Source of the DNA: Parvibaculum sedimenti
GTDB lineage: Bacteria; Pseudomonadota; Alphaproteobacteria; Parvibaculales; Parvibaculaceae
DNA length: 64,000 bases
Assembly (NCBI RefSeq): GCF_009184905.1
Contig: NZ_WESC01000011.1
Span: 1-64,000, forward strand
Direction of reading: 5' to 3'
The translations under genes were made by a program, and so were the position numbers. Numbering within the stretch: position 1 is the stretch's first letter; each line of letters opens with the position of its first letter. Of this stretch, positions 33,233-38,555 are shown piece after piece. The notes beneath the pieces were generated by a model. It saw nothing but the letters and a program-made list of their open reading frames with translations, had not been told where the DNA came from and ran no database searches.

Positions 33233-33301
33233 GGCGGCTTGCCCGCCCACGGGAAGCCCATTAAACATGGGCAATTGATATTCAAAGGCAGCGAGGCTCA
33301 G

Positions 33302-33706
33302 ATGCTTGGACAGCTCAATCACGTAGCGATCGCCGTTCCCAATGTGCGGGAAGCGGGCGAGATGTATCGCACAAAATTCGGCGCCAAGGTTTCCGATGCC
33401 GTGCCGCAGCCGGACCACGGCGTGACCACGGTTTTCGTCGATCTCGGTAACACCAAGCTCGAACTGCTTGAGCCTTTGGGCGAGAACTCGCCGATTGCCG
33501 GTTTTCTTGCGAAGAACCCCAGGGGCGGCATCCACCATGTTTGTATCGAGGTGGATGACATCGACGCCGCTTGCGAGCAGGTGACCTCCGAGGGCATCAC
33601 GATCACCGGCACAGGCAAGCCCCGCGTCGGCGCGCATGGGAAGCCGGTCGTTTTCCTGCATCCGAAAGATCTTTACGGAACGCTGGTCGAACTCGAGCAG
33701 GCCTGA
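33302..33706 (+). CDS. mce: Methylmalonyl-CoA epimerase
   Basis: A 134-residue vicinal-oxygen-chelate protein converting the R and S forms of methylmalonyl-CoA, used in propionate breakdown. Seen: LNHVAIAVPNV with the first metal His, ELLEPLGENSPIAGFL, GGIHHVCIEVDDI with the second metal His, and the C-terminal GTLVELEQA with the metal Glu. The ATG at 33302 follows a GAGG site; the frame stays open upstream but the family start is here. Confidence 0.93.
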   Translation: MLGQLNHVAIAVPNVREAGEMYRTKFGAKVSDAVPQPDHGVTTVFVDLGNTKLELLEPLGENSPIAGFLAKNPRGGIHHVCIEVDDIDAACEQVTSEGITITGTGKPRVGAHGKPVVFLHPKDLYGTLVELEQA

Positions 33707-33731: not shown

Positions 33732-34037
33732 ATGACCTGGACCGCAGGCATTGCCATCTACCTTGTGGTCTGGTGGACCATCCTTTTCCTGGTGCTGCCT
33801 TTTGGCGTGCGCTCGCAGCATGAGGAAACTACGCCGTCGGTGGAAGGCACCGATCCGGGGGCGCCGGTGGCGCCCATGCTGGTGCGCAAGGCGCTGGTGA
33901 CCACGGTGATCGCCGCTCTGGTCTGGCTCCTCGTCGCTTATATCTACATCTATCAGCCGATCAGCTTCGACAGCATTCCCTTCATGCCGAAGTTGCATGA
34001 TTGGTATGGGGACGGGCAGCCCCAGACCGCCAGTTGA
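33732..34037 (+). CDS. DUF1467 family membrane protein
   Basis: A 101-residue protein with two hydrophobic segments (about 6-24 and 55-76) separated by a polar loop with the LPFGVRSQHE motif typical of this uncharacterised alphaproteobacterial family. The function is unknown. It follows mce by 25 bases and is probably in the same transcript; the mce-DUF1467-proS order is common in alphaproteobacteria, though here about 3 kb of other sequence separates it from proS. Confidence 0.85.
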   Translation: MTWTAGIAIYLVVWWTILFLVLPFGVRSQHEETTPSVEGTDPGAPVAPMLVRKALVTTVIAALVWLLVAYIYIYQPISFDSIPFMPKLHDWYGDGQPQTAS

Positions 34038-34087: not shown

Positions 34088-34107
34088 ATCCCGGCGAAAG
34101 CCGGGAT
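34088..34107. repeat. REP-like hairpin repeat core
   Basis: ATCCCGGC, a GAAA loop, then GCCGGGAT, preceded by GTC. This matches the dispersed REP-type palindrome found between genes in many alphaproteobacteria. Only one copy is seen in this window. Confidence 0.55.
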
Positions 34108-34194: not shown

Positions 34195-34227
34195 AAAAAA
34201 AAGCAAGGTCCACTTTCGTGGCCTTGC
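34195..34227 (-). terminator. Rho-independent terminator of the small RNA
   Basis: On the minus strand GCAAGGCCAC, the loop GAAA, then GTGG, one bulged A and CCTTGC, directly followed by eight T. The T-tract exists only on this strand, which fixes the direction. Confidence 0.88.
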
Positions 34228-34336
34228 TCAATAGTGTTCCCTCTTTTTATCGCGCCATCGAGGGACTTGCAGTCCCCGACGTCGGCGTTCCCTCCCTAAA
34301 CTTGGGCCGCGCTTTCCGCGCTGTCCCTCTTTATGT
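34195..34336 (-). ncRNA. Candidate small RNA with four AGGGA motifs
   Basis: A consensus-like minus-strand promoter (34342-34370) and a textbook terminator (34195-34227) frame a transcript of about 142 nt without a credible reading frame. It folds into three stem-loops: GCGC/GCGC around GGAAA (34309-34321), a long one at 34253-34287 with GGGACT/AGTCCC at its tip, and the terminator. The motif AGGGA occurs four times (34324-34328, 34293-34297, 34289-34293, 34238-34242), always in the unpaired linkers. Such A-N-GGA repeats resemble CsrA-binding RNAs, but I recognise no known family; 6S, tmRNA, 4.5S and RNase P features are absent. Confidence 0.68.
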
Positions 34337-34341
34337 CTAAA

Positions 34342-34370
34342 AATATAGCGAGCCTGCGTAGGGCTGTCAC
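34342..34370 (-). promoter_or_regulatory. Promoter of the small RNA
   Basis: GTGACA (34365-34370), 17 bases, then TATATT (34342-34347) on the minus strand, each five of six to consensus. The predicted start is at about 34336. Confidence 0.75.
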
Positions 34371-34926
34371 GCAATTTTATCCTGTCCTGAAGCCAAAACG
34401 CGCAATTTCCCGAACAGAAAATGTCCGTATGGGCAAGGAATGCGTAGTGCCGATTCAGCGGGGCGCAAGTTCGATACCGAGGAGTCCGGCAGTGCGCCCT
34501 TGGTCTCGCGTCAGCGCTCCGGGATGGGCCAATCGCCGCGCGGGAGATGAGGCCGACTCCGCCTGCGATGCAGAGGGTGAGTGCCATTGGCGGTGACGGC
34601 GGCGGGAGCGGATTTATCGGATCGCTCCGCTCAATTTCGGCAAATCTCTGGATCATCAGGCGAGCGACAAAAAGAAGGGCAGGCGCTGGCGCATAAAGCG
34701 GCATTGCTGATGGGCAGGCGGGCGCGCCGCCAACGATGGTGTCCGAACCCGGCGCAAGCATCATGGAGCGGCCGGGCCTGAGGAAGTAATCTGTAGGCTG
34801 ATTTATTGGTGGAGCGGATGATGTGAAGACCGTTTCGGATTCCGTCTCTGGGGGCGCCCGCACATTCCTGTCGAGAAGGGGCCTTGGCGAAACACATCTT
34901 TAAGGTGAATTGTCGAGGATGGGCGC
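34371..34926. other. Long gap without a supported gene
   Basis: Both strands have open frames, including a 211-codon minus-strand one (34228-34863) that runs across the small RNA and its promoter. Its product is low-complexity and unlike any family I know. The stretch contains a 7-bp dyad near 34460-34500 but no tRNA-like or repeat structure that I recognise. Confidence 0.4.
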
Positions 34927-35358
34927 ATGAGCGCAGGGAGACATATCGCCTGGTGGTTGACCGTCGCATGGTTGGCGGCGCCTGCTACGGCGTATGCCGG
35001 GGACGGGGCGGTCGGCTTTGAGCCGGTCGAGGTCAGCGCCGAGCTTTGCGCACATATCGCGACCTATGTCCCGGGCGGCGAGGCGGACTACAAGCCGGGC
35101 ATTGCCGCCGACGGAAGTGCGGTCGTCCCCGCCGACATCGACCCGCCGCTTGAGACGCGCGAACTTTACAGCTTCCCGGTCAAGATCGCGCCCTTGAACG
35201 GCAGCGGGAAATACGCCGCCGACTCCACGCTCGAGGTTGCAACCGTCACATTCGATCCGAAGACGGGCATCGTGCTTGTGGACGGACAGCAGGTGACGGG
35301 CGCAGAGCGCGCGCTTGCTGATGCATGCGCGCATCGCTCGGAAAAATCCGGCGACTGA
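34927..35358 (+). CDS. Secreted hypothetical protein, 143 residues
   Basis: Not recognised. The N-terminus is a clear Sec signal (basic start, WWLTVAWLAA core, cleavage likely after AYA at residue 24). The mature part is small, acidic to neutral, and has only two cysteines (in ELCAHIA and ADACAHR), which may pair in the periplasm. The ELYSFPVKIAPLNGSGKYAADSTLEVATV segment looks like beta strands. It ends 88 bases before the next secreted protein gene on the same strand. Confidence 0.65.
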   Translation: MSAGRHIAWWLTVAWLAAPATAYAGDGAVGFEPVEVSAELCAHIATYVPGGEADYKPGIAADGSAVVPADIDPPLETRELYSFPVKIAPLNGSGKYAADSTLEVATVTFDPKTGIVLVDGQQVTGAERALADACAHRSEKSGD

Positions 35359-35393
35359 ATACTTCGTTAACCATGTTTTCGCGCGCCGCTTTC

Positions 35394-35421
35394 TTGACAG
35401 GCAGGCCACTCGCCATAACCT
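35394..35421 (+). promoter_or_regulatory. Promoter before the 555-residue secreted protein gene
   Basis: A perfect -35 TTGACA (35394-35399), 16 bases, then TAACCT (35416-35421), 26 bases before the ATG at 35447. Confidence 0.5.
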
Positions 35422-35446
35422 TTGTGCTGGGCATCGCGGGGGTCTC

Positions 35447-37114
35447 ATGCGTTCGAAAGTGGTCAGGGCGGCCTTCGCTGCCGTCTGCCTGTTGGCATTC
35501 TGTGTCGGGAGTTTGCCTGCGACGGCAGGCGTCTCGACCATGTGGCGGATCACCAAGGATCATTGGGACCCGTCCGACGAGAAGGGCTATGAGGACTTCG
35601 TCGCCGCGCTCGGTGCGGAAGATTGCTGGACCCTCGACGCCTGCCTGAAGAGCCCGGCAAACCCCTATCGGCATACGGACCCCAGGGTCACATTCTTCGT
35701 CGACTGCGCCGACGTGCCTTATCTCCTGCGCGGCTATTACGCCTGGAAGAACGGGCTGCCCTTCGCGTGGCAGAGCGCGATGCAGTCTTCCGATGGGCCG
35801 CGCGGCGATATCCGCTATTCATCAGGGGGCAACAGGGTGGTGGGGCGAGAGTCTGTGCCCGCAACGACTTCGGGCGTGCCCGCGATTCCGCTTCTTTTCG
35901 AGGTCGCCAATACGGTTTCGACGGCGATGTTTCGCCACGATGCGACGTCGGACAGTCCGACGCTCTTCACCGATATGTATTCGCCGCGTCTCGACCGCGA
36001 GGCGATCCGCCCCGGCACCGTCGCCTATGACGTCAACGGCCATGTCGCGCTGGTGTGGAAGGTGGAGCCGAGCGGGCGGATCATGATCTTCTCGTCTCAC
36101 CCCGACAACACGCTCGACCGCACATTCGTGGGGCGCGAATTCCTGCGCACCGGGCCGGAGCTCGGCTCGATCTTCCAGAACTGGCGGCCGATCCGTCTTG
36201 TTGGCGCAAGGCAGCTGGCCAGCGGAACCTATGTCGGCGGGCGCATCGTCGGTACACCGAACGAAGAGATCCCGGAATTTTCACTTGAGCAATATGTCGG
36301 CAATCCGCCGGTCGATCCGAGCCTCTGGGCCGTCGCGAAATTCGTGAAGGACAATGAAGGCATGGATTTCTACACCTATCTCCGCGCCCGCCTTTCCATC
36401 GGCGACCTCGAATACAAGCCAGTCGAGGAAATGCATGTGATGATGCAGACGCTTTGCCAGGACCTGCGGGCGCGGGATCGCGCCATCGATATCTCCCGCA
36501 TTGAGGGGCACACGCAGGACATGCCGCAACCCGACAGGCTGCCGCGCAACATCTATGGCACCGATGGCGTCTGGGAACTCTATTCGACGCCTTCGCGCGA
36601 CGCGCGGCTCAAGACCGCCTTCAAGGAGATGTACGACCAGACCCGCGAATTCATCCAGATGAAGGAGATCGACGCGCCGCGCCTTCGATATACGGGGGCC
36701 GATCTGCCGCGGGATCTGCTGCGTGCTTTCGACGAGGAAAACGCAGCCTGTCCCATCGCCTACCGCAAGACGGACGGGACGAAGGTGCGGCTCACGATCG
36801 ACGATGTGATTCATCGCCTCTTCAAACTCTCCTTCGATCCCTATCACTGTGTGGAGCGGCGATGGGGGGCGACAGAACCCGGCGAACTCGCCTCCTGTCC
36901 GGACGGAGCGAAAAAGACCCGCTGGTACGAGGCCGAACAGGGGCTTCGCAACCAGATCGACCGGACCTATGACATCGAGATGGACTCGACAGTCGAGGAA
37001 CTGGAGCAGGGACCATATGGGCTCGAATCGGGTCGGGGCGTCGCGCAGGCGCCCGAGGTTGATGTCCGGGCCTTCCTCATCTCGCATATGGAAAGCCGTT
37101 CGGCCCAGAGATAG
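35447..37114 (+). CDS. Secreted protein with possible cysteine-hydrolase core, unknown function
   Basis: Not assigned to a family. A Sec signal is evident (VVRAAFAAVCLLAFCVG, cleavage near residue 27). In the mature part FVDCADVPYLLRGYYAW puts Cys87 at the start of a helix, and GTVAYDVNGHVALVWKV puts His199 on a strand, with His218 in FSSHPDN; this Cys-helix then His-strand layout resembles NlpC/P60 or other papain-like hydrolases. The C-terminal 300 residues are polar and contain further cysteines. The ATG at 35447 is chosen because the signal peptide begins there and a promoter lies just upstream; the open frame extends further back. Length 555. Confidence 0.7.
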   Translation: MRSKVVRAAFAAVCLLAFCVGSLPATAGVSTMWRITKDHWDPSDEKGYEDFVAALGAEDCWTLDACLKSPANPYRHTDPRVTFFVDCADVPYLLRGYYAWKNGLPFAWQSAMQSSDGPRGDIRYSSGGNRVVGRESVPATTSGVPAIPLLFEVANTVSTAMFRHDATSDSPTLFTDMYSPRLDREAIRPGTVAYDVNGHVALVWKVEPSGRIMIFSSHPDNTLDRTFVGREFLRTGPELGSIFQNWRPIRLVGARQLASGTYVGGRIVGTPNEEIPEFSLEQYVGNPPVDPSLWAVAKFVKDNEGMDFYTYLRARLSIGDLEYKPVEEMHVMMQTLCQDLRARDRAIDISRIEGHTQDMPQPDRLPRNIYGTDGVWELYSTPSRDARLKTAFKEMYDQTREFIQMKEIDAPRLRYTGADLPRDLLRAFDEENAACPIAYRKTDGTKVRLTIDDVIHRLFKLSFDPYHCVERRWGATEPGELASCPDGAKKTRWYEAEQGLRNQIDRTYDIEMDSTVEELEQGPYGLESGRGVAQAPEVDVRAFLISHMESRSAQR

Positions 37115-37235: not shown

Positions 37236-38555
37236 ATGCGCCTTTCCCGATATTTTCTGCCCACGCTCAAGGAAAACCCCGCCGAGGCGCAAATCGTCTC
37301 GCATCGCCTCATGCTGCGCTCCGGCATGATCCGGCAGGAGGCCGCCGGCATCTATGCCTGGCTGCCGCTCGGCTTCCGGGTGTTGCAGAACATCGAGCAG
37401 ATCGTGCGCGAGGAAATGGACCGGGCAGGCGCCATCGAGCTTCTGATGCCGACGCTTCAGCTCGCCGATCTGTGGCGCGAAAGCGGTCGCTACGACGCCT
37501 ATGGCCCCGAGATGCTGCGCATCAAGGACCGCCACGAGCGCGAGTTGCTTTACGGACCGACCAACGAGGAAATGATCACGGAAATCTTCCGTTCCTACGT
37601 GAAGTCCTACCGCAACCTGCCGGTGAACCTCTATCACACGCAGTGGAAGTTCCGCGACGAGCAGCGCCCCCGCTTCGGTGTCATGCGCGGTCGCGAATTC
37701 CTGATGAAGGATGCCTATTCCTTCGACCTCGACGAGGCAGGCGCGCGACTTTCCTATAACCGCATGTTCGTCGCCTATCTGCGCATCTTCGCGCGGCTTG
37801 GTCTGAAGGCGATCCCGATGCGCGCCGAGACGGGCCCCATCGGCGGCGACCTTAGCCATGAATTCATCATCCTCGCCGAGACGGGCGAGTCCGGCGTCTT
37901 CATCGACAAGAACGTGCTTGATCTCCCGGTGCCCGGCGAAGATGTCGATTATGATGGCGACCTTACGCCGATCATCAAGCAGTGGACCGATCTCTACGCG
38001 GCGACCGAAGACGTTCATGATGCCGAGCGCTTCGCGCGCGAAGTGCCGGAAGAGCGCCGCGTCGCCACGCGCGGCATCGAGGTCGGCCAGATCTTCTATT
38101 TCGGCACCAAATATTCGCAGGCGATGAAGGCCGTGGTTTCGGGCCCCGATGGCGTCGAGCGGCCGGTGCATGGCGGTTCCTATGGCGTCGGCGTGTCGCG
38201 CCTCGTCGGCGGCATCATCGAGGCGAGCCATGACGACAATGGCATCATCTGGCCGGAGGGCGTCGCGCCCTTCAAGGTCGGTCTCGTCAATCTGAAGGTC
38301 GGCGACGCGGAAGCGGACGCGGCTTGCAACGAGCTTTATGAGAAGCTCACCAAGGCCGGCGTCAGCGTTCTCTATGACGATACGGATGAACGCGCGGGCG
38401 CGAAGTTCTCGAACATGGACCTCATCGGCCTGCCTTGGCAGCTCGTAGTCGGTCCGCGCGGGCTGAAGTCCGGTGTCGTCGAATTGAAGAACCGCGCGAC
38501 GGGCGAGCGCATCGAGCTTTCGCCGGAAGCCGCGCTCAACAAGCTGACAAACTGA
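37236..38555 (+). CDS. proS: Prolyl-tRNA synthetase (short type without editing insert)
   Basis: Class II aminoacyl-tRNA synthetase charging tRNA-Pro, 439 residues. Seen: the N-terminal [15 protein letters not shown], motif 1 near [33 protein letters not shown], motif 2 in [21 protein letters not shown], and motif 3 with [16 protein letters not shown]. The long INS editing domain of the E. coli enzyme is absent, as is usual in alphaproteobacteria; editing of Ala-tRNA-Pro would then need a separate protein. lolC follows after 31 bases. Confidence 0.96.

Follow-up and report, generated by a model that had tools for sequence, protein, structure and literature searches.

The window, by which we mean the whole 64,000-nucleotide stretch of Parvibaculum sedimenti DNA analysed here, most likely encodes on its minus strand a small RNA of 141 nt that acts as a sponge of aR8, trapping this MmgR/SuhB-type small RNA by base pairing (estimated probability, about 0.85). 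The assignment is built from the DNA sequence, namely the anatomy of the predicted gene, its strand, its complementarity to aR8, the co-variation of the two RNAs, a recurrent gene slot, and the finding that the genome of the window (G000; 3.70 Mb, completeness rating 100%) has Hfq and lacks CsrA. By analogy with Caulobacter CrfA, the pairing would be driven by Hfq and lead to sequestration and decay, with release of carbon-related targets. The features of the locus are as follows.

33239-33706, plus strand: mce, methylmalonyl-CoA epimerase gene (TIGR03081)
33732-34037, plus strand: DUF1467 gene, one side of the slot
34195-34335, minus strand: predicted small RNA, 141 nt, with its start placed by the promoter and its end by the U-tract
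34195-34228, minus strand: Rho-independent terminator (hairpin 34228-34203 and U8 34202-34195)
34229-34250, minus strand: linker with AAAAAGAGGGAACACTA and the fourth AGGGA; proposed Hfq contact, A-R-N-like
34251-34287, minus strand: stem-loop II (predicted fold; G·U versus A·C cells)
34268-34341, plus strand: match to Rfam RF00519 (suhB/mmgR) on the opposite strand, 42.0 bits (cut-off, 41)
34284-34308, minus strand: core, 25 nt, complementary to the aR8/MmgR core (one G·U), containing AGGGA motifs nos. 2 and 3
34309-34321, minus strand: stem-loop I, with GGA in the loop (predicted fold)
34342-34347, minus strand: -10 element TATATT (promoter scan; TATAGT in most relatives)
34365-34370, minus strand: -35 element GTGACA (promoter scan; 17-nt spacing to -10)
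34927-35358 and 35315-37114: two open reading frames between the RNA and proS, with no Pfam match at E ≤ 0.001
37236-38555, plus strand: proS, proline--tRNA ligase gene (NF008979), other side of the slot

The preliminary description had proposed a free-standing transcript of about 142 nt bounded by a near-consensus promoter and a strong terminator and containing three stem-loops, which the promoter scan, the fold, and the U8 tract bear out at the level of sequence. The sigma-70-type promoter GTGACA-17-TATATT (34370-34342, minus strand) shows 10 of 12 matches, and GTGACA with the 17-nt spacing is present at 25 of the 26 Parvibaculum loci, the 26th (in G019) ending at a contig edge. The terminator, whose stem is bulged, was not reported by the terminator scan and was read from the sequence and fold. 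The minus-strand RNA has a folding energy of -53.1 kcal/mol (z = -3.9 against 200 shuffles), the GGA previously placed in the first loop is seen there in the predicted fold, and the RNA scores 132.7 bits with its own model R1, a value that follows from how the model was constructed. Two features recur in relatives (alignment of the relatives of 34365-34410), a TTGCAAAAATTTC-like stretch located upstream of the promoter and a GTGACA..TGTCGC arrangement at it, and may mark a regulator site. A palindrome, CCCGGCGAAAGCCGGG, lies between DUF1467 and the RNA (34090-34105) in a single copy within the window, and a second copy of the terminator hairpin sequence is found directly 3′ of the sponge gene at three loci (L017, L011, and L020, in G012, G022, and G023).

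A blast comparison of the locus with its own genome returned a 25-base stretch, 96% identical, on another contig. This stretch is the true mmgR/suhB gene, the only clear aR8 of the genome (G000:C37:84496-84569; RF00519, 79 bits; U7 terminator), and the window RNA is therefore complementary to the mmgR/suhB RNA. The core (34308-34284, minus strand) forms 25 contiguous pairs with aR8, including one G·U, as compared with a maximum run of 17 in 3,000 dinucleotide shuffles, and cofolding of the sponge with aR8 gains -33 kcal/mol in this genome and -29 to -36 kcal/mol in three others. In each of 28 genomes with both RNAs, the run comprises between 15 and 25 pairs and none of 100 shuffles attains the duplex energy; the pairing is interrupted, with a contiguous run of 15-17, in G016, G020, G021, and three genomes of genus g3, and in G016 and G021 the length of the run equals, but does not exceed, that of the best of 100 shuffles. 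The 10-mer UUUCCUCCCU, described as the pairing core of aR8 RNAs (PMC12559287), is contained within the duplex, so that the complementarity to the aR8 core of the same genome expected of an aR8 sponge is found here. Both partners appear accessible, with the 10-mer of this genome being 0.74 unpaired and the sponge core having a mean unpaired value of 0.71 in 32 sequences (lowest value, 0.29), as compared with 0.43 when the RNA is taken as a whole. The Shine-Dalgarno-like appearance of the core stems from its complementarity to the anti-Shine-Dalgarno core of aR8/MmgR, the most likely target of the RNA; thus the earlier suggestion that the RNA imitates ribosome-binding sites came close to the truth, the resemblance being that of an aR8 complement. 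An aR8 above the cut-off was missing from 2 of 40 family genomes, G027 (83% complete) and G036 (rated 100% complete). As for the partner, MmgR is described as limiting polyhydroxybutyrate in Sinorhizobium (PMC7143759), and SuhB of Sphingopyxis, which we take to be of the aR8 type by its Rfam name, as repressing thnR with Hfq (PMC6563040).

Automatic annotation would place a second mmgR at 34268-34341 on the plus strand. That the locus is indeed a second aR8/mmgR RNA transcribed from this strand is, in our judgement, very improbable, even though RF00519 scores it at 42.0 bits, barely above the cut-off of 41, and the plus strand folds better than its shuffles (z = -4.4 for a slightly longer stretch), as hairpins are expected to do. 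Among the 26 Parvibaculum sponge loci, with 88 candidates scored per genome, plus-strand matches to RF00519 at E ≤ 0.001 are limited to two, in G000 (42 bits) and G036 (30 bits), and the true mmgR of the genome lies elsewhere with 79 bits. On the plus strand, the hairpin is followed by at most three consecutive T, and the conserved aR8 structure with a U-tract terminator that characterizes an aR8/mmgR paralogue was not found on it. The promoter and terminator are both on the minus strand, and both are conserved in relatives. Furthermore, 25 distinct sequences contain 34 G·U cells versus 7 A·C cells in stem-loop II, and 39 versus 9 when the terminator is included; as G·U cells pair on the minus strand only, this excess favours minus-strand folding, and the minus-strand RNA is more stable than the plus-strand RNA in 24 of the 25. 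The conserved promoter and terminator, the G·U excess, and the greater stability together make the minus strand the likelier RNA strand. Although the opposite strand resembles aR8 (42 bits), the window RNA is instead an aR8 complement with its own promoter and terminator, and we read the plus-strand match as the mirror image of this complementarity, not as a second mmgR. At such genes, the strand reported by the Rfam suhB/mmgR model can be the wrong one. A wrong-strand match of RF00519 likewise lies opposite several homologues in other families.

The minus strand carries four AGGGA motifs (34328-34324, 34297-34293, 34293-34289, and 34242-34238), the middle two of which overlap by one A, and at least four such motifs occur in 0.015% of 20,000 mononucleotide shuffles; a chance cluster was ruled out by conservation. 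The description of all four motifs as unpaired is too strong, since the GGG of the first motif is paired in the minimum free-energy fold; the core AGGGAGGGA has an unpaired probability of 0.77-0.87. The motifs are unequally conserved across the 26 Parvibaculum sequences, the first core motif and the linker motif being kept in 26/26, the 5′ motif in 17/26, and the second core motif in 16/26. Mean column identity within Parvibaculum amounts to 91.5% in the core, 83% in the linker, and 89% in the terminator stem, with lower values for stem I (73%) and stem II (76.5%), in agreement with the prediction that the linkers are conserved while the stems drift. The best-conserved part outside the terminator U-tract is the aR8 complement.

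Like CsrB/RsmY-type RNAs, the RNA carries several AGGGA/GGA motifs (four AGGGA, plus the GGA of the first loop), and it had been suggested that it might titrate a CsrA/RsmA protein in the same manner. We regard this as extremely improbable: the window genome, in contrast to the setting of CsrB/RsmY, is without CsrA, as no match to PF02599 was obtained in this genome of 100% rated completeness (the control search matches 3 of 14 reference genomes). Also, the 5′ and second core motifs are incompletely retained in Parvibaculum, and two genomes of the related genus g2 keep the core and lack the linker motif. The aR8 pairing does not account for the linker AGGGA, invariant in Parvibaculum; in genera g2 and g4 the linker site is A-rich or carries (AAU)n, which suggests an Hfq contact at this site.

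Of three variable contact positions compared in the 64 genomes, out of 72, in which both partners were readable, two (X and Y) show co-variation between the sponge and aR8. Position Y comprises 46 T-A, 10 C-G, 8 T·G, and no C-A combinations, and position X comprises 50 A-U, 10 G-C, 3 G·U, and a single mismatch; position Z shows 57 Watson-Crick pairs, 4 G·U pairs, and 3 mismatches (one being the G342 candidate). When the sponge was paired with the aR8 of other families, mismatches rose to 20% at X and 10% at Y. Several matched states coexist within single families, namely f1 (Y), f15 (X and Y), f29 (X), and f42 (Y); in f1, two genera show C-G at position Y (G012 and G015, and genus g3). The Fisher p-values of ~3e-7 (Y) and ~2e-9 (X) overstate the evidence because phylogeny is ignored, and the matching letters could have come from a shared origin or from gene conversion between the sponge and aR8 genes.

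The proposed mechanism follows that of CrfA. The sponge would be transcribed from its own minus-strand promoter, with the core GGCCCAAGUUUAGGGAGGGAACGCC exposed between its two hairpins. Hfq, whose gene is present in this genome, may bind the A-rich linker and U-tail and bring the sponge together with aR8 encoded elsewhere in the genome, whereupon the core would pair over ~25 bp with the anti-Shine-Dalgarno stretch of aR8 (UUUCCUCCCU and its flanks). The aR8 RNA so paired could no longer block ribosome-binding sites, one or both RNAs would probably be degraded, and the genes held down by aR8 would thereby be released. CrfA is described (PMC12559287) as a carbon-starvation-induced RNA whose pairing, on Hfq, with the four aR8 RNAs SisA-D reduces the levels of these RNAs and frees their targets; the footprint of CrfA is G49-C63, and replacement of G49-G54 abolishes the pairing. 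CrfA (CCNA_R0093; start listed at 3781500 in PMC5988900) is an independent gene, and its Hfq-bound RNA uses a G/A-rich segment to pair with the aR8 core UUUCCUCCCU (PMC12559287; PMC11005374). The footprint numbering fits a GGGAGG core as in the window RNA, CrfA being likened here by its published description, and CrfA faces four aR8 RNAs whereas the window RNA has one clear aR8. QrrX and SroC (both cited in PMC12559287) and the RoxS sponge (PMC8216469), also likened by description, trap a small RNA by pairing, although the targets differ.

Alternatively, the RNA might be an ordinary mRNA-pairing small RNA that acts through stem-loop II or the GAGGGAACACUA linker, with the aR8 pairing mainly letting aR8 control it. 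The linker motif, kept in 26/26 and unexplained by aR8 pairing, is in line with this idea, as are the accounts that CrfA was at first taken for an mRNA activator and that SisA overexpression lowers CrfA (PMC12559287). We nevertheless consider it unlikely, since conservation outside the terminator U-tract is highest in the aR8 complement, with the stems drifting, and since in Caulobacter an effect ascribed to mRNA pairing by CrfA is described as having gone through SisA (PMC12559287).

The putative aR8 sponge has a wide distribution. The locus was found in 26 of 27 Parvibaculum genomes, the exception being G029 (57% complete), and the R1 search recovered a locus separate from aR8 in 39 of 40 family genomes; close relatives are present in 22 named records, 15 of Parvibaculum and the rest of Rhodobiaceae, Parvibaculaceae, Hyphomicrobiales, or Alphaproteobacteria. 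P. indicum DSM 25305 is among the strains with the locus. Class-wide, R1 matches 126 of 385 alphaproteobacterial genomes at E ≤ 0.01, many of these matches being plain antisense of aR8 genes mixed with likely homologues. Among 97 stretches from outside the family that were inspected by eye, homologues judged to have their own terminator came from 33 genomes, which represent 20 further families of Alphaproteobacteria. A scripted check, which was stricter than the eye and missed several terminators, detected no core in 4 of these 33 genomes (G097, G263, G376, and G066) and classed G067 as antisense aR8; the terminators of G046, G302, G283, and G415 are weak or imperfect. In the negative control with 398 phylum genomes, R1 matches 31, three of them outside the class with a best score of 26.4 bits, a value not exceeded by several of the class matches. 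A pattern search in the family of G362 matched 9 of 17 genomes.

These loci tend to share a gene slot. The order in the window is DUF1467 (plus), the RNA (minus), the two open reading frames, and proS (plus), so that the RNA lies near proS but not adjacent to it; relatives of the 599-residue open reading frame occupy the same slot in G011, G012, G015, G021, G159, G262, and G347. All 18 of the 33 homologue genomes with longer loci carry RNase J, mce, DUF1467, or proS genes, and slot genes accompany three of six further f15 genomes found by pattern. Overall, slot genes are present at 33 of 36 homologue loci (the misses being L277, L279, and L280), a set that takes in five Parvibaculum and six other family loci, has the window's own locus among its members, and counts one place twice. 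Among controls chosen as aR8 or its antisense, slot genes accompany 3 of 43, all three being the opposite strand of sponges.

Judged by its proS slot, promoter, terminator, and core, the window RNA is probably the Parvibaculum orthologue of ar9 (SmrC9, sra32, or SmelC289) of rhizobia. In Sinorhizobium, ar9 is described as lying between SMc01933 and proS and divergent from proS (PMC2573895), and its relatives adjoin proS with one exception (PMC3927594). The promoter is given as gaTGAC-n17-CTA.AT, with a Northern blot signal in three rhizobial species (PMC2245857), the length as 149 nt (PMC2780559), and SmrC9 is stated to bind Hfq (PMC2848018). With ar9 of Rhizobiales (RF02343), the window RNA shares the slot and the orientation divergent from proS as well as, by eye, a TGAC-n17-CTATAT-type promoter and a GCAAGG..CCTTGC terminator; the ar9 terminator GGCAAGGC..GCCUUGCC is of the same kind, and the Rfam consensus core of ar9, CAAGUCUUGGGAGGA, resembles CAAGUCUAGGGAGGA of the window RNA. 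On the other hand, SMc01933, the other flank of ar9, is oriented opposite to DUF1467 of the window, and when the core consensus of ar9 is set against that of aR8, 18 of 25 positions pair, with gaps and with one mismatch falling in the core itself. RF02343 has no match in the window (Rfam cut-off, 45 bits) and none above the cut-off in the 385 class genomes. Below the cut-off, six of the 385 match at E ≤ 0.05, two of which coincide with R1 places (G376, 35.3 bits, beside proS; G294, 27.5 bits). When compared with the homologues, RF02343 matches the sponge strand in G376, G345, G003, G154, and G294 with 26-35 bits, all under 45 and three of the five with E of 0.18 to 3, and the alignments run core to core in 3 of 4. 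It is on account of the shared slot and core that we call the window RNA a probable orthologue of ar9, with no RF02343 match in the window and homologue scores under the Rfam threshold. The epithet "undescribed" in the preliminary description therefore applies in part: a loose literature search found no small RNA of Parvibaculum, but the RNA appears to be orthologous to rhizobial ar9. In the portions of open-licence papers on ar9/SmrC9/sra32/SmelC289 that were covered, no sponge role and no sponge of MmgR was found, and the main text of the CrfA paper (PMC12559287) does not mention ar9 under the names searched.

The structure of the homologues bears on the origin of the sponge. In several other families, the sponge starts with an A-tract followed by a hairpin of the GG(G)GCCGC type, which together are reverse complementary to the terminator and U-tract of aR8, and a full-model match to RF00519 lies opposite the sponge in 10 of 20 loci with at least 34 bits. 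This arrangement could be accounted for by inversion of a copied aR8 gene or by selection for long pairing. In G137, G154, G257, G298, and G345, the RF00519 matches (E ≤ 0.001) are opposite the sponge or weak (~31 bits or less), and no separate aR8 above the cut-off was found there in the RF00519 search. In family f116 (G154, G257, and G345), RF00519 scores highest on the strand opposite the sponge (44-55 bits) and no separate aR8 passed the cut-off, so that the locus there could be an aR8 gene or make both RNAs; this fits either a recent inverted copy or an aR8 gene residing in the slot. A more far-reaching reading, which we consider less likely than not, is that the RNAs of the proS slot (ar9, the Parvibaculum RNA, their relatives, and possibly CrfA) and aR8 form an ancient alphaproteobacterial pair, in which a dedicated aR8 antagonist has co-evolved with aR8 base by base. 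It would have begun as an inverted aR8 copy, with the A-tract and first hairpin of the sponge being relics of the aR8 U-tract and terminator hairpin. The Caulobacter position 3781500, at which CrfA starts, is presumably not near proS.

The open-licence literature covered contains one published case of aR8 sponging, that of CrfA in 2025 (PMC12559287). The Parvibaculum RNA would add a second aR8 sponge, apparently far more widespread and located in a recurrent gene slot, and leads to a predicted function for the Hfq-bound RNA ar9/SmrC9/sra32, which was reported in 2007 and for which the sources covered give only predicted targets. A general antagonist is thereby suggested for the MmgR-type control of carbon storage and uptake. 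Similar RNA pairs are seen in many Alphaproteobacteria, and an orphan RNA family may gain a function.
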